This document shows, in pieces, positions 1 to 32,875 of a DNA stretch of 32,875 nt (the stretch's first letter is position 1; the number at the start of each line of letters is the position of its first letter). The notes beneath the pieces were generated by a model that worked only from the letters and a program-made list of their open reading frames with translations, was not told where the DNA came from and made no database searches. The translations under genes were made by a program, and so were the position numbers. Source of the DNA: a virus; the IMG/VR virus record IMGVR_UViG_3300010883_000217, positions 1-32,875 of that record; one strand, written 5' to 3'.

Positions 1-3000
1 CGTACTCCTGGTCTTCTGGGTCAAATCCGGGGGGTTCCAGTGCTCCCGCTGGGTCGATGATGAGGATGTCCCCTTCCTTGACCCCTTCCTGCTGGAAGTT
101 GATCTGTCCCGGATCGAGCCCCGCGTTCGTGTCCGTGAAGCGATTGATGGACGCCTCGTAGACCAGCGCCTTCCACTCGTCGAAGTCCGCTGGGGTGTGT
201 GGGTCAGGCAAGGTGGCCACATACTCCGCCCAGGTTCCTACGTCCGCTGTGTCCCAGAGGATGAATCCTCCGTTGTCTGGATAGTCCGGGCTGTCCGGGT
301 TGGCAGGGGTCCACTCCATCGTCCGCCGATAGACCATCACGTCTGTTGTCAGTTCGAGCAGTTCCTCGTTGGACTGCTCGTGCGGCACAGGAGCAATCCG
401 CATGAAGACCTGGAAGGCCAAGCCGGACCAGTCAGGATGGCTATCGGGTGCCGTGCCCACCAAGCCGGGTGGCCGCAAGGACAAGGTCTTGGCATCTGTG
501 ATGGTGCCGATCTCAGCCGTGGCAATGACCTCACCCGTTATCGGATGAAGAACCCGGACCTGGTCACCTGGGTTGATGTTGACATCGTCGTTGTCGAAGC
601 CGCCGAGCTGGGTGCCCTCTCCTTCCGCCACGAAGGTCGCGAAGTTCCCAGTCCCCGTGTAGGAGTCGATGGTCCCGTAGCGAATCTCGTAGCAGAAGCG
701 GAGCGCCTGGAGGTTGGTCGAGAAGTCGTCGAGTACATCGTGCCATCGACGAACCCTGCGAACAGAGAACGCCACGCGGTTGTACAGCGGGTCGCCCCAA
801 GTCGCAGTGTCGGTAACGAAGTCCAAAGACCCGCGAGAACCCACAGCGGAGTCCGTCAGGTCTACACCTGGGATGACAGGCGGCCCGTCCGCCTGGTCGC
901 ACGAAACACGAGGAGAGAAGACGAGCCCTTCACCTGGGAAGGCTGAGTCTTCCGTGCCGTCGTCGTTCAGGTCCCCAACCGAACGTGGGAAGGAGGGCTC
1001 CAGGAAGATGCCCGCCTCGGCGTAGTAGCCCGGAAGGTCTGTCTCTGTGCCTCCGGTATGGTCGAAGAACGAAGTCGCCACCTGACTGGTAGGCATCAAA
1101 GCGAAGATGGCCGTGTCCAGCGCGTCTGCTACCAACTCAGCCGTCTGGGTAAGCGTCTTCCACATGTCATCGGTGACATCTGACAGGTCGAGCAGGAGAG
1201 CGCCGCCTTCATGAACGAACTCTGGCTCCTCTTCCCGGAACTCACCCTGGTGGTTGGGCACAGCAGCTTCTTCGAGGACCATGCCCACATCTACTGCATA
1301 GGTGCTGCTGGTGGTGGTGACCAGGTTCCCGCTCGGGACAGACCACTCAGAGTAACCAATGTAGTCAACAGGAGCCCCAGCCAACACAGAGTCCAGGTCA
1401 TACAGCGAGGGGACCTTGATGCTGATGGCTGAGAACCCAAGGAGGGAGACATCATTTGCCGAGCCATAGTCGGTGTGCTCAGTGTGCCCAGTGACGCCCT
1501 TGTTTGGGAGTCCGGCTCCAGTGATGTTCAGGGGCATCCGTTGGATACCGAAGAGCCGCTTACCCACGACACCCTCGATCTCCTCCTCTTCGTCACCTAC
1601 CAGTTGAGCGAGAATCTGCTCGTTGGAGTAGGCATAAGGAGCCACAGAGAGGAGTTGCCCACACGCATCGGCCACCGTACTAAGGTCAATCTTGAAAGAT
1701 GTCTCCCCTGAGGTGTGCGTGTAGTCCGCTTTGAAGACCCTTGTACAGAAGGTCTCCACAGTGTCGTCAGTCTGCGGCGTAGAGCGATAGATGTAGAGTG
1801 GGTTGCCGTTGCCCACCCCCGTCGTGCCCACGTCATCCCACGCGCCGTGGAGTTCATGCCCTTCCCAGGTCACCAACTCATCGAAGTGGATGATTGCGTG
1901 GGTGCCTGAGTCGTCCTCCACCTCTGTGATGGTCGGGAAGTAGGACTGCGCCCAGGCCGTAGGTCCTGGAGCAGGAGCGACAAGAGTCATTGCCCGGACG
2001 CGAGCCTCGGCAGGCTTGGCATCTTCCGCAGGAGATCCTGGGTTGGCGTCATAGGTGTCTGTGATTGCGTTCGAGGAGACCGCGTGTCTGACCAGATAAG
2101 TCCCCTCCTTCACCGTAGCCGCTCCGTCAGTGAGCAGATCAAGCTCGTCTTCTGGGGCAAAGTTGACAGCAAGAGTGTCCCCAGCCATGACTTTGGAGGG
2201 GTTGAAGGAGGATGACCCGTCCTCCTTCGTGTAGACTCGGATCTTGTTGGCCCACCGGGAGTCACGAGCCCAGACAGGCGTCGCGTCTTCCCAAAGGCGG
2301 TCCATGACCCCGGAGCCTTTGCAGAGGAACACTGAGTCGTCCTGGGCCACCTCTGAAGAGGGCATCGCTGAGAACGTCGCCCCAGTGAAATCAATCTCTA
2401 CGTTGCCGTGACCCTCCCAAGGCATGACCTTGAGAGCAGTCACCCCTGCATGAGTGTCTGTGACGAACCCCACGCCGTTGACAGTGTCGGGTGTTGTCCC
2501 ATCACGGCTCTTGAAGGTGAACGGGTCACCCGCGTTGACGCTGTCGGGGTTGTTGATGGTGAGGTGGACCTCCTGCTTCGAGACAGGATTCATATCCTCC
2601 TTGAACAAGGTGCCTTCCACCTGACTGACCTCAAGGCGAATCTCGAAGTCAGTGTCGCCCGCACCTGGTCCGTGGGTGTCCCAGAGAGGGTGCTTGGTCC
2701 CTCGGGGCCAAGCCAAACGGAAGTCGAAGTTCTCAATGAAGCTCAACCTGTCCGTGTCGATGTAGGCCGTCTTCCCCTTGACGACCTCGAACTGCATGGT
2801 GAAGTCGAGGAACAACTCGTTCCCCACGTCATCCAAACCGTAGGTCCAGAAGTGGTCCGCGTCGTAGTCGGGGTTGGGGTCGCCAGCGTTCGGGTGACCG
2901 GGTGGGAAGAACTCCTCGTCCCCATCGGTGTCCTCCTCCTCTGACTCGAACAGGTCGAAGGGGAACCACTGCGCGGTGGTGAACTCGTCGTAGTCGGGGT

Positions 3001-6000
3001 CTGCCGGGAAACCGTAGCCGCCGTCTCCTGGCATATTCCCCAGGGCGTCCACAGGGTCCGTGTGTTCATCACTCGGATGAACCGTCCTGATGATGAGCTT
3101 ACTCCCATCGAAGTAGATGCCCCCATCGTTGTCCGGGCGGATGATTCGGACTTCCGTGACGGGGTTGTTGCTTGTATCAGTTGCGAAGGCCCTCTGCCCA
3201 CCAGCAACGTGGTCGTACACGCTGAGGAAGAAGACGGGTTCGGAATGAGCGCCGTCGATGTCAACGATGTGCCCGGAGGTTCCTGCGGTCCCCACTCGGA
3301 GTTGGATGGTTGCCCTGGCCATCCCATCTCCTGGCTGCGGGTCGGCCAAGTCCAAGGGTCTCGCCAGTATGTCGAACTGGATCTTGGTGTCCTCTGCACA
3401 GTTCGACAGGACTGAGTTGAGACCGCCTTCAGGCCAGTCACCGACGGAAGGGTCAAAAGAGCCGCCTCCGTCACCGTCATCCAAGACCAGGAACCCTGCC
3501 CCAATAGAGGCCGTAGAGATGTGCGTCTCGGTGTACCTGTCCGGGTAGTTCGGGGGGTCGGTGTCATGACCAATGACCCATTCGTCTACTCGAAGCCCCG
3601 CCAGGTAACCCGTGCTGTGGTCGCTCCAAGCCGTGGCGTTGGCAATCGTGTACGAAATCTCCGCGCCTTCGGTAGTCGGGCTGACGAATCGAGGAGGCTC
3701 GATGTATGTCTCAGGACCATCGGAGGGCACAACGGCCCCAATCTCCAAGATCCCTTGGGAACCTGGGGGAAGGGCTGCGTTATCGTCGTCCGGCTCAATC
3801 AAGAGCAAGTCGTAAGACCTGACATCCCCAACCCCGGTGTGGGCCTCATACGTTCCGTTCGTTGGAGAAAGGTCTGCCTCCGTAGCCATAGCCGCCGGGT
3901 ACGGACCATCCGGGGCAACCGACCCATCCAAAGACAGGACCTCATCTGGGTACACCGCCTTATGGACGTGTGGCTGAGGTACGGGGAGGGTGGTGCAATC
4001 GGACAGCGCGATCCCGGTTACGGCACGGGCTGCTTCTTGGAGTCTCTGAAGCTCTGTGTTGTTGACGCCCATGTACGGGATCGTCCAGTCGCCATCGTCG
4101 TCTCGATTCTCACCGAGAAGTGCTGGTATTTCAAGGGGTTCCAGCTCGAAGTTACGGAACTCAACGATGGACTCAACTTCCATCTGAGGGCTCGGTGTCT
4201 TCTGACCCAGCAGGTCCTTGAGTCCGAAGAAGGTCGGGTCTGAGAAGCTGGGGAACGAAATGTCCCGGTACTCACCGCGCCGCATACGGACGCTGTAATC
4301 GAACCCCTTGCGGAAGTTGGGCATGGCCGATGCAATCATCGCCATGTCTTCAGCGGTCGGGGGGTCATTCAACTCGACTTCGACCCCGCCTCCGAGAGCT
4401 TGGGTAATCGTGTAGCCTCGAAGAAGCTCAATCGGCGGACCCCCGTCATCAGAGGTCATCTCTACGAAAGCGTTGCCATTGGTGATGGGGTCGTCCCCAT
4501 CAGTGAACGTCATCACGCAGCCCTTGTAGATAGCACCAACAAAGACTGGCTTGACCTTGGTCATCCCAAAGATGTCCAGGGACACATCCGTGTGTCCCCC
4601 ATCGAAGAACTCCCCAGTGGGCCTTCCGAACTTGATCTTCATCCCAGTCCTGAACCCAGGCGTACTGATCTCCCAGTCACCAGTAGTCAGGTCAGGCGCT
4701 CCACCATCCATCATGGTCGCGAGCTTCCCTACGTCAGGCTTGCCTTGCTCATCCAACGGGAAATCAACCAGCAGGTTGGGCGTCGCAACGATGGCTGGTT
4801 GAGGGTTGTTGGTGAAGTCCGAACCAAGGAGGGCGTCCCATTCCGGGAACCCCACAGAGCTGTACTTGTAGATGCGGGCGCGAGACGTGCGTGGGTAGGT
4901 GTCAATGTCCGTCAGGTCATTGATCTCCCCCAACACGGGGTTGGAGATGTTCCCAGAGGTCCTGAAGAAGGAGGACCGGAGCTTCCCTCCTCGGATGCCC
5001 AAGAACAGATGCTCGCCGTAGTCCCCAGCTTCTGGGTTGGCCCCTACGCCAGGGAAGAGGGTAGTGAACCCACTGGCCCGCTCGGGGAAGATCCGAGAGA
5101 ACTCGTTGGGGTCGGCCATGCGCTCGAAGCGCCCCTTCGCCTTGATGATGAAATGAGGGAGGGGGAGGAACCTCAGTATGATTCGAGGCCGCTTACGGCC
5201 CACGATGATGAGGTCATCGAGGTCATTGCGGATGAGCCTCCGCTGCTGCTGAAGCATGAAGTCAAAGTCGTCCCCCTCTATCCAATCCCCTTCGACCTGC
5301 CCGTCTGTGTCAAAAGACGACGAGTTTGGGACGACGACCCAGTCGTCGTCCTGGATGTAAACTGAGGATGCCCCGCGCCGAGCGACGAAGACCTCAGTCC
5401 AGATGTTCCTCGGGACGATTCGGCCTGTGACTGGGTTCTCCCAACCAGGAGGGGTGAACTCCAAACCCTCGCCCACCCAGAAGCGGAACTTCCCATCTCG
5501 GTCGCCGACCATACGGCCTGAGATGTTCTCGGTGATCTGCTCGAACGCCACGATGGTCGCGTTGTAGAACGCCAGGAACTTCCGACCTGCTCGGTCGGTA
5601 TCAAGTAGATGCTCACGTTCCACAGTGAGACCAACGCGGCCCTGCTCCCAGTTCTTGGAACCTCCCCACCCTCCCGTGGACGGACCAAAGGATGGATTCT
5701 TGGAGTTGGCTTCCTTGACCATGTCGAGGGCTACTTCGCCCATGTGGTCCAGGAGAGGAACCGTCCGGCAATAGAACGAGTCTGGGGACCGGAACGTGTA
5801 GGTTCCCAGGAGTGCCGCACCCTGCAAACCGTTGTCCTGGCTCGGGGCCACAGTGTGACGGAACTTGGTCGCAAACCGTGGGAAGACGACCTGTCCACGG
5901 TGCAGCTCAGGTCGTGCGGTGGTGATGCGTGTGCGTGCGAAGTAAAGCTGTTGGGTCGCCTGAAGCGGGGCCTGAAGCGGCTGCTGAAGGGTGATGTTCC

Positions 6001-9000
6001 CAGTCATGGGGTCCACAGCGTAGTGGATGCCTTCGGCCAAGGTGCGCCCAGGCTTCTCGGTCCCGTCGATGTTCCTCTCTCCCCACAGGACGACTTCGTA
6101 AGGGAGATCAGGAAGATAGGCTCCTGCCCCAATGTAGTCTATCGGAGCGGGTGGGTAGACGGGTCGAGTCGTAACCGAGACAGAGTCAGTGCCGTAGGTG
6201 AACCCCTTCGGGAAATCAGGGGTGACGGCAATGGTAGTCCTGCGCCCGTCGTCGCTGAGCTTGAGACCCACGATAGAATGTGGACACCCACCGATCTCAA
6301 GGATGTGGCCCGCCACGAACTTACCCATACAGTTAGCCACCACGACCAACTCTGTACGGCCCTTGGACACAGGCTCATAGACTGGCTCTTCGGCCAACTC
6401 AAGCAGGTCCTGAATCGGGACAAGGAACCCGCCAGGTCCGTCTGTTGCGATAGCGTCCCCGTCCGGGTCCACCACATGAGCAATAGGCTCAGCCGTATAG
6501 AGAGTCAGCGTATCGTTACCAGGGGCGCTGGAGCCCACACCAAGTCCGGGGACTGGAGGGAAGATCCCCACCGTCGTCAAGCCCGTCCCCGCGTCGTACT
6601 CAACACTCTTGAGGTAGAACGACGCACCGCCAATCCTAAGCAGCGCACCCTCTACTAAGTCCCCTGTGCGGTCTGACTCCAACTGGAACTCTTCGAGGCC
6701 ACCCTCCAAACGGAAAGGGGGTCTGTACACCGGAGGTTTGGAAACGGTGTAGGAAAGCTCTCCTCCGAAGGCTTCGAGAACAGCGTAGCTGATACTGACG
6801 TTCGTGCTCTCCTCCACCTCGAAGAAGAAGTTGATAAGGCCGTTCTCGATGTCGATGCTGGCATTGTCGTAATCGTAGTTGGCTTGTTCAGCCCCGAAGT
6901 ACGCCAGCGGGGTGACAGTGTCGAAGACGGTCTTCCCTTCTGGGTTGAACGAATACTGCTGTGCATTGATCCGCACGCAAGACTCACGTCGAACGTAAAG
7001 GGGCAGATTTTCGTTGATGACCGGAAGGACCTCCCCTTCATCGCCCGTCGCCAACTGACCAGCCTTGTCGGATACCCGATACTCCACCTCAACGATCTGA
7101 CCAGGACCCAAAGGTTCCCGGAACATGAACGCTCCTGCTAAGGGGTTCAGATAGACATCCTTCTGTTGCTCGGTGATCATTTGAGCGGCCCAGTACAGCG
7201 ATGCTCCTGTGTACTGGGAGAGGTCGGCAGAAGAGAGGTTCAGGTCCCCCGTGCCTTGGTTGACTTCCACGAACCCAGGTTCCAGTGAGGATGACGGGGT
7301 CTCGACGTAAACGACCTGCGCTTGGTCCTGAGAATCCAGAAGAGCCCCACTGAAACGGACTTCCCCGGTGCCGTCATCCAGGTACTCCGCGAAGTCTGGG
7401 TCCTCGGAGAACTCGGAGACACTAAGAAGCTCGACTCCGGGCCGGAGAACCTCCACGCCGACGTGTAGCTCGAAGTCCCCATCCAACACCCTCTGAGAAG
7501 TCGGATCTGGGATGTAGATGCCCGCGTTCGAAATAGTCCCGAGAGAGTCCATGTCCAACCAAAGGACTTCCAGCTCTGGGGAACCAAAATCGAGCCCGGC
7601 TCGAACTACGACCCTCCGTCCACTCTGAAGGTCCTTCCCTACAATGGCTTGCAACGGGTTCGCAGGATCCTGCTGAGACGGACAGTCGCCCACATAGGAC
7701 ACCTTCCGAATGTAGAACGGCTCCTCTGGGAGATGGTTGAACTGCTGGTAGACCTGGTCCGCCACGACCTGAGGGTCAATGACATCCTTCGTTTTCTGGT
7801 CGTAAATCTCCCAAGACATCGGAGCAGACCCCGAGTCGGCTGGGAAGGCTGGCTCAACCGTGATCACCTCAGCGGTGACATCCACGATGCGATACGAACC
7901 AGCCGCATCTCCGGTGTTCAACTTGAGACGGTCTCCAACTTCAATACCAGCCGCCACGAACCCCGCATCTGTATCGGTCAGTGTTGTGCCGTCCAGGTCG
8001 AAGAACCCCTTGGAACCATAGTGGGCCAACCCTCCGATTTCTTCGACCAAGACAGCCATCCCGGTCAGACCCTCCTGGGGGAGAAGGAAGTCTTCACCCG
8101 GCTGAAGGAGTGCAAAAGGGTCCCCGCCGAAGGATGCCCTCAGATAGCCGTTCAAGGCTGGGTGGAGCGTTTCCTCAACGATGCCCTGCCCACCCAGGTT
8201 CAGATACGACACGGGGGCTTCAGCGGCCCAGGAGGACCGCTTGTTGTCGAGCCATGCAAACTGTCGGTCCTCGAAGCGGTAATGGATGTCCTCCATCGCC
8301 TCAAGCCGCTTCCGATACGGACCTGCCTGAATCTCGAAGAAGACCCCATCATCCACCCCGGCGATGTCCACCAGGGGAATCTGCTGTATGAACGTAAAGG
8401 GGACTGGCTGCACGGTGGTCAGCATCTCCCCTTCGATGCGGCTCGTTGACTTGAAGTCCGGCTCGACCCCACTACCGTCTTCGTTGAAGGGGCTGCGCCA
8501 GAGACCAATGCTCTGACCGGAGTCAACCAGCCAGTTGGGGTCCAGCGCGGTGCCTTTGATTGAAGGGTCTATGGGAGCGGTGGTCTTCCACCCCGGCCCG
8601 AACCCAAGCGCCGCTGTCCCGGAGAAGTCTTTGACTCCATCCTGGCCGTAGAGAATCTCTACGGTGCCGTTAGTGATGTTGTTTGGGGCAATGACCAGCC
8701 GACCGTTGAACTCGTAACAGGTCCCCGCAGTGTTAGCGATAAGAGTGTCAATGGAGAGGGCTACCTCCGTAGCCGAATACAGCCCGCCCTCCTCTGTAAC
8801 GCTTCCTGTGAGTTGGATAGCGTCCCACTCGAACACAGGGTCGTTATCTATGATGAAGGAGAGCTTCTCGTCGCCTCGTAGAGTGAATGGCCCCTCCTTC
8901 CGGGAGACCATCCGAGCGTCCTCTGCGTAGGTAGCTGGTGTGAAGTCCGCCTGGAGGAAGTACAACGGCTTGTCGTTGTACTTCATGAGGTCCTTGAAGC

Positions 9001-11008
9001 CGATCATCGCGTGAGAGTTGTTGGTGCTCCCTTCGGTGACGTAGACCTTGCCCCGGCGAATCATGAAGGGGAAGTCTGGTAGGTCATCGGCGGTGTCCCG
9101 AATGGACAGCTTCTCGAAAGGATGGCCTGGGACGAAGAAGAAGGTGTCGCCAATCCCCTTCACCTGCCTCATGAGCCCGGAGTCTCCTGGGCGAGTGTTC
9201 ACAACGGTGTGTGCTGGTACTGCCCCTACCTTGTCTTCAACATGTAGAATCCCGGAAGTGCCGAGACCCTCGGGCTTGGCATCGGGGACGGAGAAGGTGA
9301 AGTCCCCGGAAATCACACCAAGAGAGGCGGCGGCGCGTGCAGGTTGTGACATCCGGTTCAGGACAATGCCGTCGTAGAACACCTTGTCGCCCACAAAGAG
9401 CTTATTGAAGTCGGGGTTCGGGCTATCTACATCCCCCATGATGGTCTTCGTCACATCAGCGGGGGAGAAGAGAACCATCCCCGTGGACAACGACACAGCC
9501 ACGTTCCCAGTCTCAATGGTGACCTCGTCGGGGAGTTCGTTGTCGTTCTCAAAGTACGAGACCTTGAGCCAGCGTCGGCTCCCAATCCGCAAGAGTGCGT
9601 GGTCCGTGACGCCGGGGATGGGGGCAATAAACAGCGGAGACTGGTCCGCATCGGACAGCTTGCCCACCACACCCTTCGAGTCCTTGTTCAAGGTGCGGGG
9701 GATGTACCAGACCACCTGGCCCGCATACTCCATGAAGAGCGCAGGGTTCCAAACGATGATGCCGTTGGTTTCGCCTACGATGCCCGCTGGCGCAGGATCT
9801 CGGGACCCGAAGTCGTACTCCCCAGACGCGGCGATGTCGTCCGGGACAACTTCAATGCCCCTGAAGTCCGCCCCTGTCTCATCATCTCCAAGAGGGATGC
9901 TGTTGGCAGAAGGCATCGCCCCCAGTCGCAGCATCGCGTACTGGTCCTTGTCCAGAGAGTGGGGTCCAACCGCACCAGGCAGGTATTCACCAATCGTCAG
10001 GTTCTGGGGCTTGGGGGTGAGTTCATAGCTCTCATCGGGGAGGAGCCGACCCATGTTGATAGGCGCTCCTCCTTTGATGGGTTCCCACCGCTGGTCTTTT
10101 CCCTGCCAATGGAACCGCTCCATCTCGGGGTCGTTCCTGGTCCACCAAAATCGTGGGGATGCCAGGTAATAGACAACCTCTACGACGCGGTCCCCACGTT
10201 GCCTGGACATGGCAGGGGAGCTTCCGTCCATTGGCCTCAGCAAACCTCGGGTATTGGAGGTGTCGTTGATGGTAATCAGACCCGCCTCTGGGTCATCACA
10301 GGAGATGTCTCCACTGGATGTCGTGAGAGTCCGGTCGATCTTGAGGTCGTCGTCTCCCAGGTTGATGATGACCGCCAGGACCCCAGCAATGGTGCGCCCC
10401 CCATCGTCCGTGACGACCAAACGAGTGGTGCCATCCGAGATGGGGTTGATAACGGCAGCGGCCCCGTAGAAGGTTCCCGTGGGGGCGGTCTCCAGTGTGG
10501 CTTCAGTGTCTGACTCGACGGAAGCCACCCGGACGACGTAGAAGCCCGTAACGACGGAGGCCCCTTCGATAAGCTGAGAGAGGAACGAGGTCCCAGTCCC
10601 CACAAGCTGGTCGCTACCCGCAGTGAGTTGAACAGCTCCTACAAGAGGGAAGGTGTAGCCCTCAGCGTCGTCGGTGGAGACCTGCTGGGTTCCTGAAGGG
10701 ATAGCAACAGTAGCGTCGTTGATGGGGTAGGTGGGGTCTTCCACCACGCTGAGGTTCGACGAGTTGGCGGAGAAGACGAGGTACTCCTCAAGCTGACCTT
10801 CTCGACCTTCGAGGATTGCGGAACGGTACTGGTCTACATACGGGCGAACCAGTTCGGTCGCTCCCCAGTGACTGATGTACTGGGCGCTGTAATCCGAGGA
10901 CAGTGTCCTGCAATCAGCATAGATGCCTCCTGTCGTTGGAGCCGTAGACTTGCTGTTCGCAGGAGCCACACGGGGTCCCCTGAGGGTATGTCCGTCAAAG
11001 ATTCCCAC
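1..11008 (-). CDS. Giant tail/baseplate-associated structural protein, more than 3,669 residues, 3' end beyond the window
   Basis: A single minus-strand frame is open from GTG at 11008 to base 2, with no stop. The left edge is in the same frame and reads ...PPGFDPEDQEY. I recognise no enzyme. The protein is acidic and rich in Gly, Asp, Pro and Thr, with many short beta-type segments. A module of the form TDTDAGF...GIEVGDRLKL lies near residue 1,010, and a related one (FTDTNAGL...GVKEGDILII) near residue 3,640. A fibre-like VGTGTSFLSQLIEG segment lies near residue 137. Asp-rich stretches near residues 1,515 (VDPDGDAIATDG) and 2,690 (EEEDTDGDEEFF) may bind calcium. The gene follows the spike and a small gene in the same operon, so a virion baseplate or fibre role is inferred. 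The start has almost no Shine-Dalgarno sequence and directly abuts the previous TAA, so translation may be coupled. GTG at 10969, behind AGGGGA, is an alternative start. The gene is certain; the function is not. Confidence 0.85.
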   Translation of the reverse strand, partial: MGIFDGHTLRGPRVAPANSKSTAPTTGGIYADCRTLSSDYSAQYISHWGATELVRPYVDQYRSAILEGREGQLEEYLVFSANSSNLSVVEDPTYPINDATVAIPSGTQQVSTDDAEGYTFPLVGAVQLTAGSDQLVGTGTSFLSQLIEGASVVTGFYVVRVASVESDTEATLETAPTGTFYGAAAVINPISDGTTRLVVTDDGGRTIAGVLAVIINLGDDDLKIDRTLTTSSGDISCDDPEAGLITINDTSNTRGLLRPMDGSSPAMSRQRGDRVVEVVYYLASPRFWWTRNDPEMERFHWQGKDQRWEPIKGGAPINMGRLLPDESYELTPKPQNLTIGEYLPGAVGPHSLDKDQYAMLRLGAMPSANSIPLGDDETGADFRGIEVVPDDIAASGEYDFGSRDPAPAGIVGETNGIIVWNPALFMEYAGQVVWYIPRTLNKDSKGVVGKLSDADQSPLFIAPIPGVTDHALLRIGSRRWLKVSYFENDNELPDEVTIETGNVAVSLSTGMVLFSPADVTKTIMGDVDSPNPDFNKLFVGDKVFYDGIVLNRMSQPARAAASLGVISGDFTFSVPDAKPEGLGTSGILHVEDKVGAVPAHTVVNTRPGDSGLMRQVKGIGDTFFFVPGHPFEKLSIRDTADDLPDFPFMIRRGKVYVTEGSTNNSHAMIGFKDLMKYNDKPLYFLQADFTPATYAEDARMVSRKEGPFTLRGDEKLSFIIDNDPVFEWDAIQLTGSVTEEGGLYSATEVALSIDTLIANTAGTCYEFNGRLVIAPNNITNGTVEILYGQDGVKDFSGTAALGFGPGWKTTAPIDPSIKGTALDPNWLVDSGQSIGLWRSPFNEDGSGVEPDFKSTSRIEGEMLTTVQPVPFTFIQQIPLVDIAGVDDGVFFEIQAGPYRKRLEAMEDIHYRFEDRQFAWLDNKRSSWAAEAPVSYLNLGGQGIVEETLHPALNGYLRASFGGDPFALLQPGEDFLLPQEGLTGMAVLVEEIGGLAHYGSKGFFDLDGTTLTDTDAGFVAAGIEVGDRLKLNTGDAAGSYRIVDVTAEVITVEPAFPADSGSAPMSWEIYDQKTKDVIDPQVVADQVYQQFNHLPEEPFYIRKVSYVGDCPSQQDPANPLQAIVGKDLQSGRRVVVRAGLDFGSPELEVLWLDMDSLGTISNAGIYIPDPTSQRVLDGDFELHVGVEVLRPGVELLSVSEFSEDPDFAEYLDDGTGEVRFSGALLDSQDQAQVVYVETPSSSLEPGFVEVNQGTGDLNLSSADLSQYTGASLYWAAQMITEQQKDVYLNPLAGAFMFREPLGPGQIVEVEYRVSDKAGQLATGDEGEVLPVINENLPLYVRRESCVRINAQQYSFNPEGKTVFDTVTPLAYFGAEQANYDYDNASIDIENGLINFFFEVEESTNVSISYAVLEAFGGELSYTVSKPPVYRPPFRLEGGLEEFQLESDRTGDLVEGALLRIGGASFYLKSVEYDAGTGLTTVGIFPPVPGLGVGSSAPGNDTLTLYTAEPIAHVVDPDGDAIATDGPGGFLVPIQDLLELAEEPVYEPVSKGRTELVVVANCMGKFVAGHILEIGGCPHSIVGLKLSDDGRRTTIAVTPDFPKGFTYGTDSVSVTTRPVYPPAPIDYIGAGAYLPDLPYEVVLWGERNIDGTEKPGRTLAEGIHYAVDPMTGNITLQQPLQAPLQATQQLYFARTRITTARPELHRGQVVFPRFATKFRHTVAPSQDNGLQGAALLGTYTFRSPDSFYCRTVPLLDHMGEVALDMVKEANSKNPSFGPSTGGWGGSKNWEQGRVGLTVEREHLLDTDRAGRKFLAFYNATIVAFEQITENISGRMVGDRDGKFRFWVGEGLEFTPPGWENPVTGRIVPRNIWTEVFVARRGASSVYIQDDDWVVVPNSSSFDTDGQVEGDWIEGDDFDFMLQQQRRLIRNDLDDLIIVGRKRPRIILRFLPLPHFIIKAKGRFERMADPNEFSRIFPERASGFTTLFPGVGANPEAGDYGEHLFLGIRGGKLRSSFFRTSGNISNPVLGEINDLTDIDTYPRTSRARIYKYSSVGFPEWDALLGSDFTNNPQPAIVATPNLLVDFPLDEQGKPDVGKLATMMDGGAPDLTTGDWEISTPGFRTGMKIKFGRPTGEFFDGGHTDVSLDIFGMTKVKPVFVGAIYKGCVMTFTDGDDPITNGNAFVEMTSDDGGPPIELLRGYTITQALGGGVEVELNDPPTAEDMAMIASAMPNFRKGFDYSVRMRRGEYRDISFPSFSDPTFFGLKDLLGQKTPSPQMEVESIVEFRNFELEPLEIPALLGENRDDDGDWTIPYMGVNNTELQRLQEAARAVTGIALSDCTTLPVPQPHVHKAVYPDEVLSLDGSVAPDGPYPAAMATEADLSPTNGTYEAHTGVGDVRSYDLLLIEPDDDNAALPPGSQGILEIGAVVPSDGPETYIEPPRFVSPTTEGAEISYTIANATAWSDHSTGYLAGLRVDEWVIGHDTDPPNYPDRYTETHISTASIGAGFLVLDDGDGGGSFDPSVGDWPEGGLNSVLSNCAEDTKIQFDILARPLDLADPQPGDGMARATIQLRVGTAGTSGHIVDIDGAHSEPVFFLSVYDHVAGGQRAFATDTSNNPVTEVRIIRPDNDGGIYFDGSKLIIRTVHPSDEHTDPVDALGNMPGDGGYGFPADPDYDEFTTAQWFPFDLFESEEEDTDGDEEFFPPGHPNAGDPNPDYDADHFWTYGLDDVGNELFLDFTMQFEVVKGKTAYIDTDRLSFIENFDFRLAWPRGTKHPLWDTHGPGAGDTDFEIRLEVSQVEGTLFKEDMNPVSKQEVHLTINNPDSVNAGDPFTFKSRDGTTPDTVNGVGFVTDTHAGVTALKVMPWEGHGNVEIDFTGATFSAMPSSEVAQDDSVFLCKGSGVMDRLWEDATPVWARDSRWANKIRVYTKEDGSSSFNPSKVMAGDTLAVNFAPEDELDLLTDGAATVKEGTYLVRHAVSSNAITDTYDANPGSPAEDAKPAEARVRAMTLVAPAPGPTAWAQSYFPTITEVEDDSGTHAIIHFDELVTWEGHELHGAWDDVGTTGVGNGNPLYIYRSTPQTDDTVETFCTRVFKADYTHTSGETSFKIDLSTVADACGQLLSVAPYAYSNEQILAQLVGDEEEEIEGVVGKRLFGIQRMPLNITGAGLPNKGVTGHTEHTDYGSANDVSLLGFSAISIKVPSLYDLDSVLAGAPVDYIGYSEWSVPSGNLVTTTSSTYAVDVGMVLEEAAVPNHQGEFREEEPEFVHEGGALLLDLSDVTDDMWKTLTQTAELVADALDTAIFALMPTSQVATSFFDHTGGTETDLPGYYAEAGIFLEPSFPRSVGDLNDDGTEDSAFPGEGLVFSPRVSCDQADGPPVIPGVDLTDSAVGSRGSLDFVTDTATWGDPLYNRVAFSVRRVRRWHDVLDDFSTNLQALRFCYEIRYGTIDSYTGTGNFATFVAEGEGTQLGGFDNDDVNINPGDQVRVLHPITGEVIATAEIGTITDAKTLSLRPPGLVGTAPDSHPDWSGLAFQVFMRIAPVPHEQSNEELLELTTDVMVYRRTMEWTPANPDSPDYPDNGGFILWDTADVGTWAEYVATLPDPHTPADFDEWKALVYEASINRFTDTNAGLDPGQINFQQEGVKEGDILIIDPAGALEPPGFDPEDQEY

Positions 11009-29502: not shown

Positions 29503-30393
29503 CTACGTCCCAGGGACGGTAGTGACCGCGTCTTGGCTCGCCATCGAACCTGAACCAAACGCACCTTCGCCCGAGCCGCCGTAACGGATAGAACCAAGCT
29601 GGCCGATGGTCGGGTCGTTACCTGTCGCCATGAACTCGCCGTAGTAAGAAGCGAAGTCGTGAGTGTCAGAGACCGTCACGTCGCCTGTCTCCATGATCAT
29701 GCCCGCGTCCTTGGCAAAGCTGGCACCCCAAGAGGTGAACCAACATGCCTCGTACATGGTGATGATGGCAGAGTGACCACGACCATTATCCGCAGTGGCC
29801 GTTTCTGATGGTGTTGCGGCATGGGCTTCCGTCTGCCCGGATTCCCACCAACCAGCACCCGCGTCGTCACCGGGGACAGACTGGGTCGTCTGAGCATACT
29901 GAACCTGCTTGACGCCGCCATCGAACTTACCACCGGAGCTACCGTAGCCCTTGTTGGCCTTGCCCAAGTCCCAGTCGGAGAGAGTAGAGAACACCAACTG
30001 TTGCTCGATGTCGAACGGCCAGCGGTGATGAGCGAGAGAGCGGACAGGACCGTCAATACCAGCGGCGTAACCAGTGGCCTGCCAGAGGTTGCAGAGGTAG
30101 AGGAGCGCCCGCTCGAAGGAGCCCGTCGTAGGCTCCGTCACACTGGGGACCAACTCAGCGACCTGGTCTCCGAAGCCAATCCCACGGACGGGCTCAACGG
30201 AACGACTCTGACTCGGGGCGAAGGACGAAAGAACGCCCATTTGCCAGAGAGCCGTGTTGTCTCCGTAGACGGGGGCCAAAATACGGACCTTCTGAGACAC
30301 CGCTGTGCGGGTGTTCGGCGAAGTGCCGTAATCGTATAGATAGCTTTGGCCTTGTAGGCCATGTGCCGGGGTTTTGTCGCTGTTCGATGCCAT
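29503..30393 (-). CDS. Probable tail tube protein (296 aa)
   Basis: The likely role is the inner tube that hexamerises under the sheath and carries DNA. It lies between the sheath and the chaperone/tape measure genes, the usual tube position. Residues about 40-105 (VRILAPVYGD..., GVLSSFAPSQSRSVEPVRG, IGFGDQVAELVPS, then a helix SFERALLYLCNLWQ) read like the N-terminal strands and helix of a myovirus tube. The C-terminal part (EACWFTSWGASFAKDAGMI... GDVTVSDTHDF) reads like the closing strands. An Asn/Gly/Ser-rich loop separates the two halves. The ATG at 30393 is chosen because AGGAGGT stands 4 bases before it. An upstream in-frame start at 30465 would add 24 residues across this site and is unlikely. 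A minor capsid or other virion protein is the alternative. Confidence 0.7.
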   Translation of the reverse strand: MASNSDKTPAHGLQGQSYLYDYGTSPNTRTAVSQKVRILAPVYGDNTALWQMGVLSSFAPSQSRSVEPVRGIGFGDQVAELVPSVTEPTTGSFERALLYLCNLWQATGYAAGIDGPVRSLAHHRWPFDIEQQLVFSTLSDWDLGKANKGYGSSGGKFDGGVKQVQYAQTTQSVPGDDAGAGWWESGQTEAHAATPSETATADNGRGHSAIITMYEACWFTSWGASFAKDAGMIMETGDVTVSDTHDFASYYGEFMATGNDPTIGQLGSIRYGGSGEGAFGSGSMASQDAVTTVPGT

Positions 30394-30397
30394 TTGG

Positions 30398-30404
30398 ACC
30401 TCCT
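30398..30404 (-). promoter_or_regulatory. Ribosome binding site that fixes the tail-tube start
   Basis: Minus-strand AGGAGGT is spaced 4 bases from ATG at 30393, making this the strongest start in the frame. Confidence 0.8.
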
Positions 30405-30432
30405 GGAGTTCTTGACCTCTACTGATAGGGCG

Positions 30433-30440
30433 AAGGTATA
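30433..30440 (-). promoter_or_regulatory. Promoter-like TATACCTT motif upstream of the tail-tube gene
   Basis: Minus-strand CCCCTATACCTTCG ends 40 bases before the tube ATG. The core is identical to the site before the spike gene, where the distance is 44 bases. A related copy lies 51 bases further upstream. No -35 element is visible. Confidence 0.35.
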
Positions 30441-30483
30441 GGGGGGCAACCGAAGCCGAGGACACCTCACCCCACCCCTAAGC

Positions 30484-30491
30484 AAAGTATA
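30484..30491 (-). promoter_or_regulatory. Second promoter-like motif, TATACTTT
   Basis: Minus-strand CCCTATACTTTGC differs by one base from the core at 30433-30440 and lies 51 bases upstream of it. The two could be tandem starts for the tube operon. Support is motif similarity only. Confidence 0.25.
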
Positions 30492-30502
30492 GGGCAGATA
30501 CC

Positions 30503-30917
30503 GTCTGAAGGGGGGTGCGCTTTCCCAGGTCGCCCGTAGACCTGATGAACACACGGGGGACACCCCCCAGGAGGAGGATGCCTTATCAATATAGTAAGTC
30601 CTGGCCTCAGGGATCATCACGAGCCTGAAGCCATAAACCTGACGCCTTGTAGTGGGTAGGGGAACGAAGTCAGGCTGGACACCTAAGCTACTGCACTTGC
30701 CTTTCCAAACGCTCACCCCAGCAGGTGAGATAAGGAAGGACTGGGACCCGGAAAGAGAGCCGAAAAAGGGCGTCCGGCAAGTGTACATGACCGTGAGAGC
30801 CGTGAGCCTGCGAAGTCCATGCTGATAGGACGGAGGCAACCCGGTCAATGCTCTGAAGGGGTGGGAGTCCCCAAGTTGGTTAGACTGGACGGATGGCTGG
30901 TTGAACCCCGCGCAAAC
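30503..30917 (+). ncRNA. Candidate structured non-coding RNA between sheath and tube genes (strand uncertain)
   Basis: There is no convincing gene here, but many helices can form. Hairpins: 30526-30531 with 30539-30544; 30555-30559 with 30563-30567; 30712-30717 with 30724-30729, enclosed by 30701-30706 with 30734-30739; 30858-30861 with 30869-30872. Longer pairings: CCTGAC (30638-30643) with GTCAGG (30669-30674); CATGACCG (30786-30793) with CGGTC-ATG (30842-30850, one bulged A), enclosing a two-part hairpin at 30806-30837; TGCGC (30516-30520) with GCGCA (30910-30914), near the two ends. The plus strand is favoured weakly: its loops are purine-rich, one wobble pair is G-U only on that strand, and a hairpin terminator follows at 30918. 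I cannot match it to a known RNA family, and a minus-strand leader of the tube gene is possible. Confidence 0.45.
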
Positions 30918-30953
30918 AAAAGCCCCCACTGCCGAGAGGCGGTGGAGGCTTTT
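30918..30953. terminator. Strong intrinsic terminator downstream of the sheath gene, possibly bidirectional
   Basis: AAAAGCC... at 30918-30933 pairs with ...GGCTTTT at 30938-30953 over 16 positions, with two imperfect pairs and a 4-base loop (GAGA on plus, TCTC on minus). On the minus strand it ends CTTTTGTTTG, 24 bases after the sheath stop. On the plus strand it ends CTTTTGTCGTTT, so it could stop transcription from both sides. Confidence 0.85.
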
Positions 30954-30976
30954 GTCGTTTCAGTCTGCGGGCTGGC

Positions 30977-32875
30977 TTAGAGCTGGCTACGCAAGTTGAA
31001 GTTGAGAACGATGTACAACAGCGGGAAGACTGGCTGATAGAAAGCCTCCATGTTCGCCAACGTCGGGTCATCTGAGGAGACGGTCGCCTTCACACCCGTG
31101 TAGTTCGTGACGATCTGCGCTGCAATCATGCGCTGGAACATCATGCAGAGGTTCCCCTCAAGCTGAGAAAGGATACCAGGCAGGAACTTCACGCCGATGT
31201 AGTTCTGCAACGCTGCACGAGAACTCTGCTGTACCAGGTCTACGATCTGAACAACCGTAGGCGTTTTGGTAAGCACATCGGTCATGTCCGATGAGAGACC
31301 GTGGCGAACCTGAATCATGCCCGCCTTGTTCTCACAAACCGAGATACCTGCCGAAGCGACCTGATTCATGGCTACGGCATCCATCTTACGAGCCAGACCA
31401 TTCGTACCCACCAGACGGGTTCCCGTCCAAGGGGTCGCAACGTCCCGGTTGGAACTCAACTGCCGAGCCGCCATCATGCACGCCAGGTAGCGTCCGTCGA
31501 TAAGAGACTCCGTGTCGTTGCCCAAGTAGTCCGTAGTCGTCACGGTCATCATGTCCGGGTACATGAACCTAACCCGCCAGTCCCCAGCGCCTCCATTGAG
31601 GGCAGAGACAAGAGCAGCGGCCTCTGAAGGCTGCGTACCCGCCGAGAACCCAAGAAGGGTAGTCCGCTCTGCGTGGTGAGCAATGTCCGACTGAATCGTA
31701 CAGTGCTCACTGAGATACTGTGCCATATCCAAGGAAGCCGGAACCAGAGGAAGCAGAAGGGCGGGGCGAATCCCACCCGGAAGCATCCCCTCCAACTCGT
31801 CGATGGCATTCAAGTAAGAGGACTCTGGAGCGTTGGTTTGACCAGGAGTCTTCAGAACCTGCTTGACCCCGATGGCACCCGCGCCATTGAGCATCATCAA
31901 GTAAGAAGCCAGGCTCACTGGAGCATCAGGCCCAGTCGCTCCGTAGCTGTCCTCCAAGACCTGGAGCTTAGTGAAAATCTTCGGAGTGAAGTCACGCTTC
32001 TGGAAGGTGTAGGTCACATAGTAGGACTGGTTGTTGGCAGGTTCCTTCTCGTTGGCCCCGCGCTTGTAGGTCTCAATCGAAACCGTATCTCCAACCTCCA
32101 CCCCAGCGGTGTTGGCAACCCAGGTCCACAGACCCGGAATAGCGGTGACCGGGTTGTTGGCGTCACAGACACCCTCTCCCCGAACCGTCATGTTGTAGGT
32201 TGCCGTAGCGCCCGTGTCGTAGTTTCCAGCGCCGTCACGTTCGAGGATGGTGAAGGTCAAGCAAGTCACAGAGTCTGTGTAGGTCTGACCAACAACACCA
32301 TCAGAACCGCCTCCACCCGCTGAGAGCAAGGAGTCGTTTGCTGACCCGGAGCCGTTGGGGTTCGAGGAGGAGACAATGAAGCCAGACCGACCAGCCTCAC
32401 CGACAGCCCCTTCACCATCTTCCACAAGGAGACCAGATCCGCTAAGGATTGCGTTGCCTCCATCGCAAGCGATATTGGAAGCCGTGCCATGAGACAAGGT
32501 TGCGAGGAAAACAGTCTCCGCACCCGCGTCGTCTGACTGTGCCAAGGCCAAGGCCAAGGCCCCGTAACCACCAGCGAAGTCGATGACCCCAGAATCCCCA
32601 ACGATGCCCTGCATGTTGAGATCGACGCCCTCGGCAGCCTGGATAGCTCCAGCAAGAGCCCCCGCAGCCACAGCAGTTCGAGAGGCGCTGGACTCAAGTC
32701 CCAGATCAGCGTGGGCGTTGCCTGAGTCTTCCGTGATGGACACGCTCGACCCAGAGCCACCTGTGACGCTGCTAATGCGAAGGGCAGCGCCCTCTTGCAT
32801 CACAACTCCCGCAGTGATTACGTCCGCCGCTGCGGAGTAGCCCGTTTGGGCCACAATCGCGGCGATGATCTGACC
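30977..32875 (-). CDS. Contractile tail sheath protein, 5' end beyond the window (at least 632 aa)
   Basis: Subunits of this family form the outer sheath that contracts to drive the tube into the cell. The frame stays open through the right edge (GQIIAAI precedes the first in-window GTG), so the true start is outside. From about visible residue 295 to the end the chain reads as a sheath: residues about 360-385 (GGIRPALLLPLVPASLDMAQ), HAERTTLLGF near 400, WRVRFMYPD near 435, LIDGRYLACMMAARQLSS near 460, then TPWTGTRLVG, and a final VLNFNLRSQL strand. The first 290 visible residues are an extra Gly/Ser/Thr-rich beta region. It contains a module of the form ALRISSVTGGSGSSVSI..ADLGLES that looks like a decorating domain. 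The sheath gene directly precedes the tube candidate, as expected. The stop is TAA, followed by a strong terminator. Confidence 0.9.
   Translation of the reverse strand, partial: GQIIAAIVAQTGYSAAADVITAGVVMQEGAALRISSVTGGSGSSVSITEDSGNAHADLGLESSASRTAVAAGALAGAIQAAEGVDLNMQGIVGDSGVIDFAGGYGALALALAQSDDAGAETVFLATLSHGTASNIACDGGNAILSGSGLLVEDGEGAVGEAGRSGFIVSSSNPNGSGSANDSLLSAGGGGSDGVVGQTYTDSVTCLTFTILERDGAGNYDTGATATYNMTVRGEGVCDANNPVTAIPGLWTWVANTAGVEVGDTVSIETYKRGANEKEPANNQSYYVTYTFQKRDFTPKIFTKLQVLEDSYGATGPDAPVSLASYLMMLNGAGAIGVKQVLKTPGQTNAPESSYLNAIDELEGMLPGGIRPALLLPLVPASLDMAQYLSEHCTIQSDIAHHAERTTLLGFSAGTQPSEAAALVSALNGGAGDWRVRFMYPDMMTVTTTDYLGNDTESLIDGRYLACMMAARQLSSNRDVATPWTGTRLVGTNGLARKMDAVAMNQVASAGISVCENKAGMIQVRHGLSSDMTDVLTKTPTVVQIVDLVQQSSRAALQNYIGVKFLPGILSQLEGNLCMMFQRMIAAQIVTNYTGVKATVSSDDPTLANMEAFYQPVFPLLYIVLNFNLRSQL

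Follow-up and report, generated by a model that had tools for sequence, protein, structure and literature searches.

What occupies the long gap in the middle of this tail operon? In the stretch of viral DNA that we analyzed (32,875 nucleotides of a large environmental phage, hereafter the window), the tail sheath gene and the gene that follows it are both on the minus strand and are separated by 583 bases (30394-30976, between the end of the sheath ORF at 30977 and the ATG of the next gene at 30391-30393). The remaining gaps between the window's main genes range from -103 to 101 bases, and the preliminary description, which had singled out this gap against others of under 110 bases, was correct on this point. 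It had also proposed that the interval 30503-30917 folds like a structured RNA of roughly 400 nt, possibly antisense to the operon, or else is a regulatory leader or a ribozyme-like remnant. Here we assess these possibilities from the signals that border the interval, from the equivalent locus in related phages and from the composition, folding and homology of the interval itself.

Flanking Genes

The features on which the analysis rests are collected in Table 1. When the window's sheath was compared by tblastn with annotated sheaths, Tunturiibacter phage Tunturi_5 gave an E-value of 5e-36 and Bacillus phage G one of 3e-21; an uncultured 485-kb phage is also among its kin. In several relatives the sheath-containing ORFs are very large (L041 1-5256, L065 549-5861, L042 151-5460, L002 1293-6290 and L039 927-5882), at about 1650-1770 aa vs. 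about 580 aa in phage G, with the sheath homology at the C-terminal end. Downstream of the tail cluster, a single minus-strand frame of the window (2-11008) spans at least 3669 residues and is open where the contig ends.

We refer to the gene after the gap as the putative tube gene, a label based on its position only. Searches of Pfam and PHROG gave it no name, and its structure model (pLDDT 41) is too poor to confirm a tube. Homologues were found in 119 relatives among viral contigs, several of them on contigs of 300-620 kb, and 80 of these 119 loci were fetched and compared.

Table 1. Features of the sheath/tube junction in the window and genes found in the same slot of relatives.
Feature	Location	Strand	Remarks
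Tail sheath gene	30977..32875	-	Continues past right end of window; PHROG 2839 tail sheath, 8.8e-15
Terminator-like inverted repeat behind sheath gene	30916..30955	both	T-run on each side; possibly bidirectional
Orphan non-coding insert in sheath/tube slot	30507..30915		No periodicity, no homologue, MFE z near 0
Locally best-folding part	30692..30785	+	10-bp closing helix 30692-30701/30776-30785 enclosing three hairpins
Second, weaker motif copy	30487..30506	-	10.4 bits; 51 bp upstream of first; next best in window
Promoter-like motif of putative tube gene	30436..30455	-	20.0 bits; best in whole window
Putative tail tube gene	29503..30393	-	Conserved widely among huge phages
HNH_3 nuclease	L011 slot	against tail genes	
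Endonuclease_7 (endonuclease-VII-type)	L009, L032 slots	against tail genes	
Helix-turn-helix (HTH) proteins	L010, L028 slots	against tail genes	
SNF2 helicase	L005 slot	against tail genes	
Metallophosphatase	L028 slot	against tail genes	
VWA/VIT proteins	L012, L013, L023, L033 slots		

Signals Bordering the Interval

A terminator hairpin had been suspected to the right of the interval, and we found there an inverted repeat with 18-nt arms (30916-30933/30938-30955, 89% complementary) and T-runs on both strands, which would be usable by a plus-strand transcript converging on the sheath gene. Three relatives (L065, L039, and L046) likewise have an inverted repeat behind the sheath gene, and in relatives with a short slot the sheath is followed first by such a repeat, then by the next gene's leader. 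The window's hairpin probably terminates transcription.

On the other side of the interval, most relatives have the motif TCGNT-N7-CTATA upstream of the putative tube gene. It was seen in about 40 relatives, usually at a distance of 35-100 bases from the start codon. We built a matrix from 39 sites of the relatives, with the window excluded, and its two highest-ranking sites in the window are those of Table 1, the second being direct repeat D1, which is 75% identical. Elsewhere in the relatives' loci, the matrix matched six times in intergenic stretches that precede a gene on the same strand (3.1 per 10 kb), compared with 0.3-0.4 matches per 10 kb of coding DNA; the remaining intergenic DNA had none. 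All six matches are on the tail-gene strand. The motif is thus a candidate phage promoter and may be the late promoter of this phage lineage; a brief literature search found no published description of it.

The Junction as an Insertion Slot in Relatives

Among relatives with both flanks on one contig, the distance from the sheath gene to the next gene was 97, 136, 485, 535, 680, 741 and up to more than 5,000 bases. The same two genes therefore flank a slot whose contents and length differ among relatives, as expected of a hypervariable insertion slot. The genes found in it (Table 1) include nucleases, and in several relatives they are antisense to the tail genes. A 1.2-kb gap in L032 that had been taken as empty was rejected as such, since it actually holds an antisense endonuclease-VII gene. 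The proteins with VIT and von Willebrand A domains are of about 840-900 aa (L012:2336-5005, L013:3217-5802, L023:3312-5828, and L033:2712-5420), and in several huge phages their genes precede the tube homologue.

LR745208.1, Tunturi_5 and phage G have sheath homologues in common with the window, and in the first two the window's conserved next gene lies at some distance after the sheath. Unlike in the window, the slot holds a 190-aa ORF in LR745208.1 and two genes in Tunturi_5. In phage G, the gene located 85 bases past the sheath was not recognized as kin of the window's next gene.

Free-standing homing endonucleases are well known at intergenic places between conserved genes in T4-like phages (PMC2988022). 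As at those sites, accessory or mobile genes lie here between conserved genes and near promoters and terminators (PMC2988022), and the HNH and endonuclease-VII-type nucleases in the slots of the window's relatives extend the likeness. The window's own slot differs in having no nuclease gene: it gave no coding signal and consists of non-coding DNA only.

Homologue Searches for the Insert

No relative of the insert itself turned up among phage and plasmid records or in about 50 related phage records searched whole, and probing of viral and bacterial genome collections, with degenerate as well as exact probes, found none either. Searches of viral contigs and bacterial genomes with blastn, nhmmer, and 16-20-base words produced chance matches only. 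Probing viral and bacterial collections with degenerate versions of the minus- and plus-frame translations gave no match, and the insert matched no slot gene of the relatives. Matches to CCGTGAGAGCCGTGAGC were rejected as insert homologues, as they look like unrelated and probably coding DNA. We also set aside direct repeats joining the ends of the element (TCTGAAGGGG at 30504 and 30852, and others), which are short and irregularly spaced.

Does the Insert Encode an RNA?

The leading alternative to an insert without a product is a plus-strand structured phage RNA of about 400 nt belonging to a new class, which would be antisense to the tail direction and would share the sheath's bidirectional terminator. 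Several observations speak for it. The interval is non-coding, as had been claimed: 3-base periodicity was absent (chi2 7.1, p 0.32, where 99% of coding windows exceed 12.1), and its sole long open frame has neither family nor homology support. The plus strand had been called purine-rich, and its 57.3% purine indeed surpasses every 415-base coding window in the tail cluster, where the mean is 48.6% and the maximum 56.1%; its base composition is close to that of RNase P RNA (rnpB). In this respect the strand resembles a structured RNA, so a plus-strand transcript is conceivable. Moreover, the hairpin at its right could serve a plus-strand transcript, and antisense genes occupy the same slot in several relatives.

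Folding lends less support. Compared with dinucleotide shuffles, the minimum free energy of 30503-30917 gave z-scores of -0.11 for the plus and -0.43 for the minus strand, and so is not clearly below that of shuffled sequence. In the same test, the control RNAs of E. coli gave -2.99 (rnpB) and -1.34 (tmRNA, ssrA), so the test is of moderate power only and, as the ssrA value illustrates, a weak z-score leaves room for an RNA. Sliding 120-nt windows folded no better than the coding background, the terminator excepted, and the element has 17 stems of at least 6 bp vs. 11.9 ± 3.4 in shuffles, a slight excess. The helices described earlier do exist, for example in a neat multi-branch domain predicted to be closed by 10 bp (Table 1), although folding beyond chance was not confirmed. 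That domain gave a z-score of -1.65, was equaled by 10 of 200 shuffles and had been chosen after the fact; a single-sequence covariance model built from it found only itself among 65 sources. The description of the interval as folding like a structured RNA is therefore not borne out.

Searches for known RNA families were also negative. With the covariance models of Rfam 15, tmRNA among them, there was no match at gathering level across the window, and nothing credible appeared at E-values up to 10, where 30503-30915 returned only chance miRNA and snoRNA fragments (E of at least 3). Models for group I and group II introns, HEARO, GOLLD and ROOL are all present in Rfam, and none of them matched at E=10, leaving a ribozyme or intron remnant unsupported. 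Visual inspection had suggested features of group I introns, group II introns and HEARO (GUGCG close to the left end, GGGGUGGGAGUCCCC, and GUUAGACU), and these readings were dropped because the covariance models gave them no support. What the insert has in common with these RNAs is only their size range and a purine-rich sense strand; it differs in its lack of an Rfam match up to E=10 and of excess stability.

At the left end of the insert, the plus strand showed neither a sigma-70-like promoter nor one of phage type. Antisense slot genes lack the TCGNT-N7-CTATA motif too, so its absence is weak evidence against such an RNA. By eye, possible divergent promoter pairs that could serve antisense slot genes were seen in distant relatives, and no shared divergent promoter was seen for the plus strand of the window. 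In L067-L078, apparently overlapping divergent promoters (CTATAAAGAAACTATTAG-like) separate the tube homologue from an antisense gene, at 70-100 bases upstream of the former. Of the earlier proposal of a roughly 400-nt RNA, the non-coding status, the purine-rich strand and the terminator on the right have thus held up, while Rfam, folding, homologue searches and the plus-strand promoter search all failed to back it. Such an RNA is possible, and we put it forward only tentatively.

Leader and Protein-Coding Readings

The two remaining readings are unlikely. A regulatory leader, that is, a 5′ leader or riboswitch-like control region on the minus strand of the tube mRNA, would fit an element that precedes a conserved structural gene whose expression is presumably high. 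However, the conserved promoter motif sits between the element and that gene, so an mRNA starting there would exclude the insert; in addition, the leader is not conserved among relatives and the minus strand folds with only the z-score given above. We regard this earlier suggestion as quite improbable.

A protein gene in the single long minus-strand frame (30138-30929, 263 codons open) is scarcely credible: its 189 stop-free codons within the gap were reached in only 11 of 1000 Markov simulations, but codon periodicity is absent, GC by codon position differs from that of real genes, family and homology searches for a conserved protein reading found none, and the frame overlaps the tube gene by 250 nt in another frame.

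Discussion

Taken together, these results lead us to favor, with a modest degree of confidence, reading the interval as a boundary between transcription units that contains an insertion slot, occupied in this phage by an orphan stretch of non-coding DNA with no demonstrated product. In this model, the sheath transcript on the minus strand would end at the hairpin, and the next unit, with the putative tube gene first, would start at one or both of the motif copies. The roughly 400 bases between terminator and promoter motif would then lie outside both transcription units, so that DNA could be gained or lost with every tail gene left intact. Relatives fill the slot with accessory genes in either orientation, homing-type nucleases included. 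Most likely, the insert was left by exchanges of slot genes or accreted during them, and we infer that it makes no functional RNA. The insert could not be traced to a decayed accessory gene, since periodicity and a match to slot genes are both absent.

Two considerations weigh against an insert that is mere spacer or neutral debris. Phages seldom retain 400 bases without function, and the plus strand exceeds all coding windows in purine content and is RNase P-like in base composition, traits not required of neutral debris. It is conceivable, if doubtful, that the slot carries a plus-strand RNA of about 400 nt of an undescribed class, as an accessory RNA gene in place of the protein accessory genes of other phages.

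At the level of the phage group, the odd gap fits a wider pattern in which the sheath/tube junction is an insertion slot, extending from a terminator to a conserved promoter-like motif, where nuclease and other accessory genes are exchanged. Were the insert to prove an RNA gene, the slot would, unusually, be filled by an RNA rather than by a protein.
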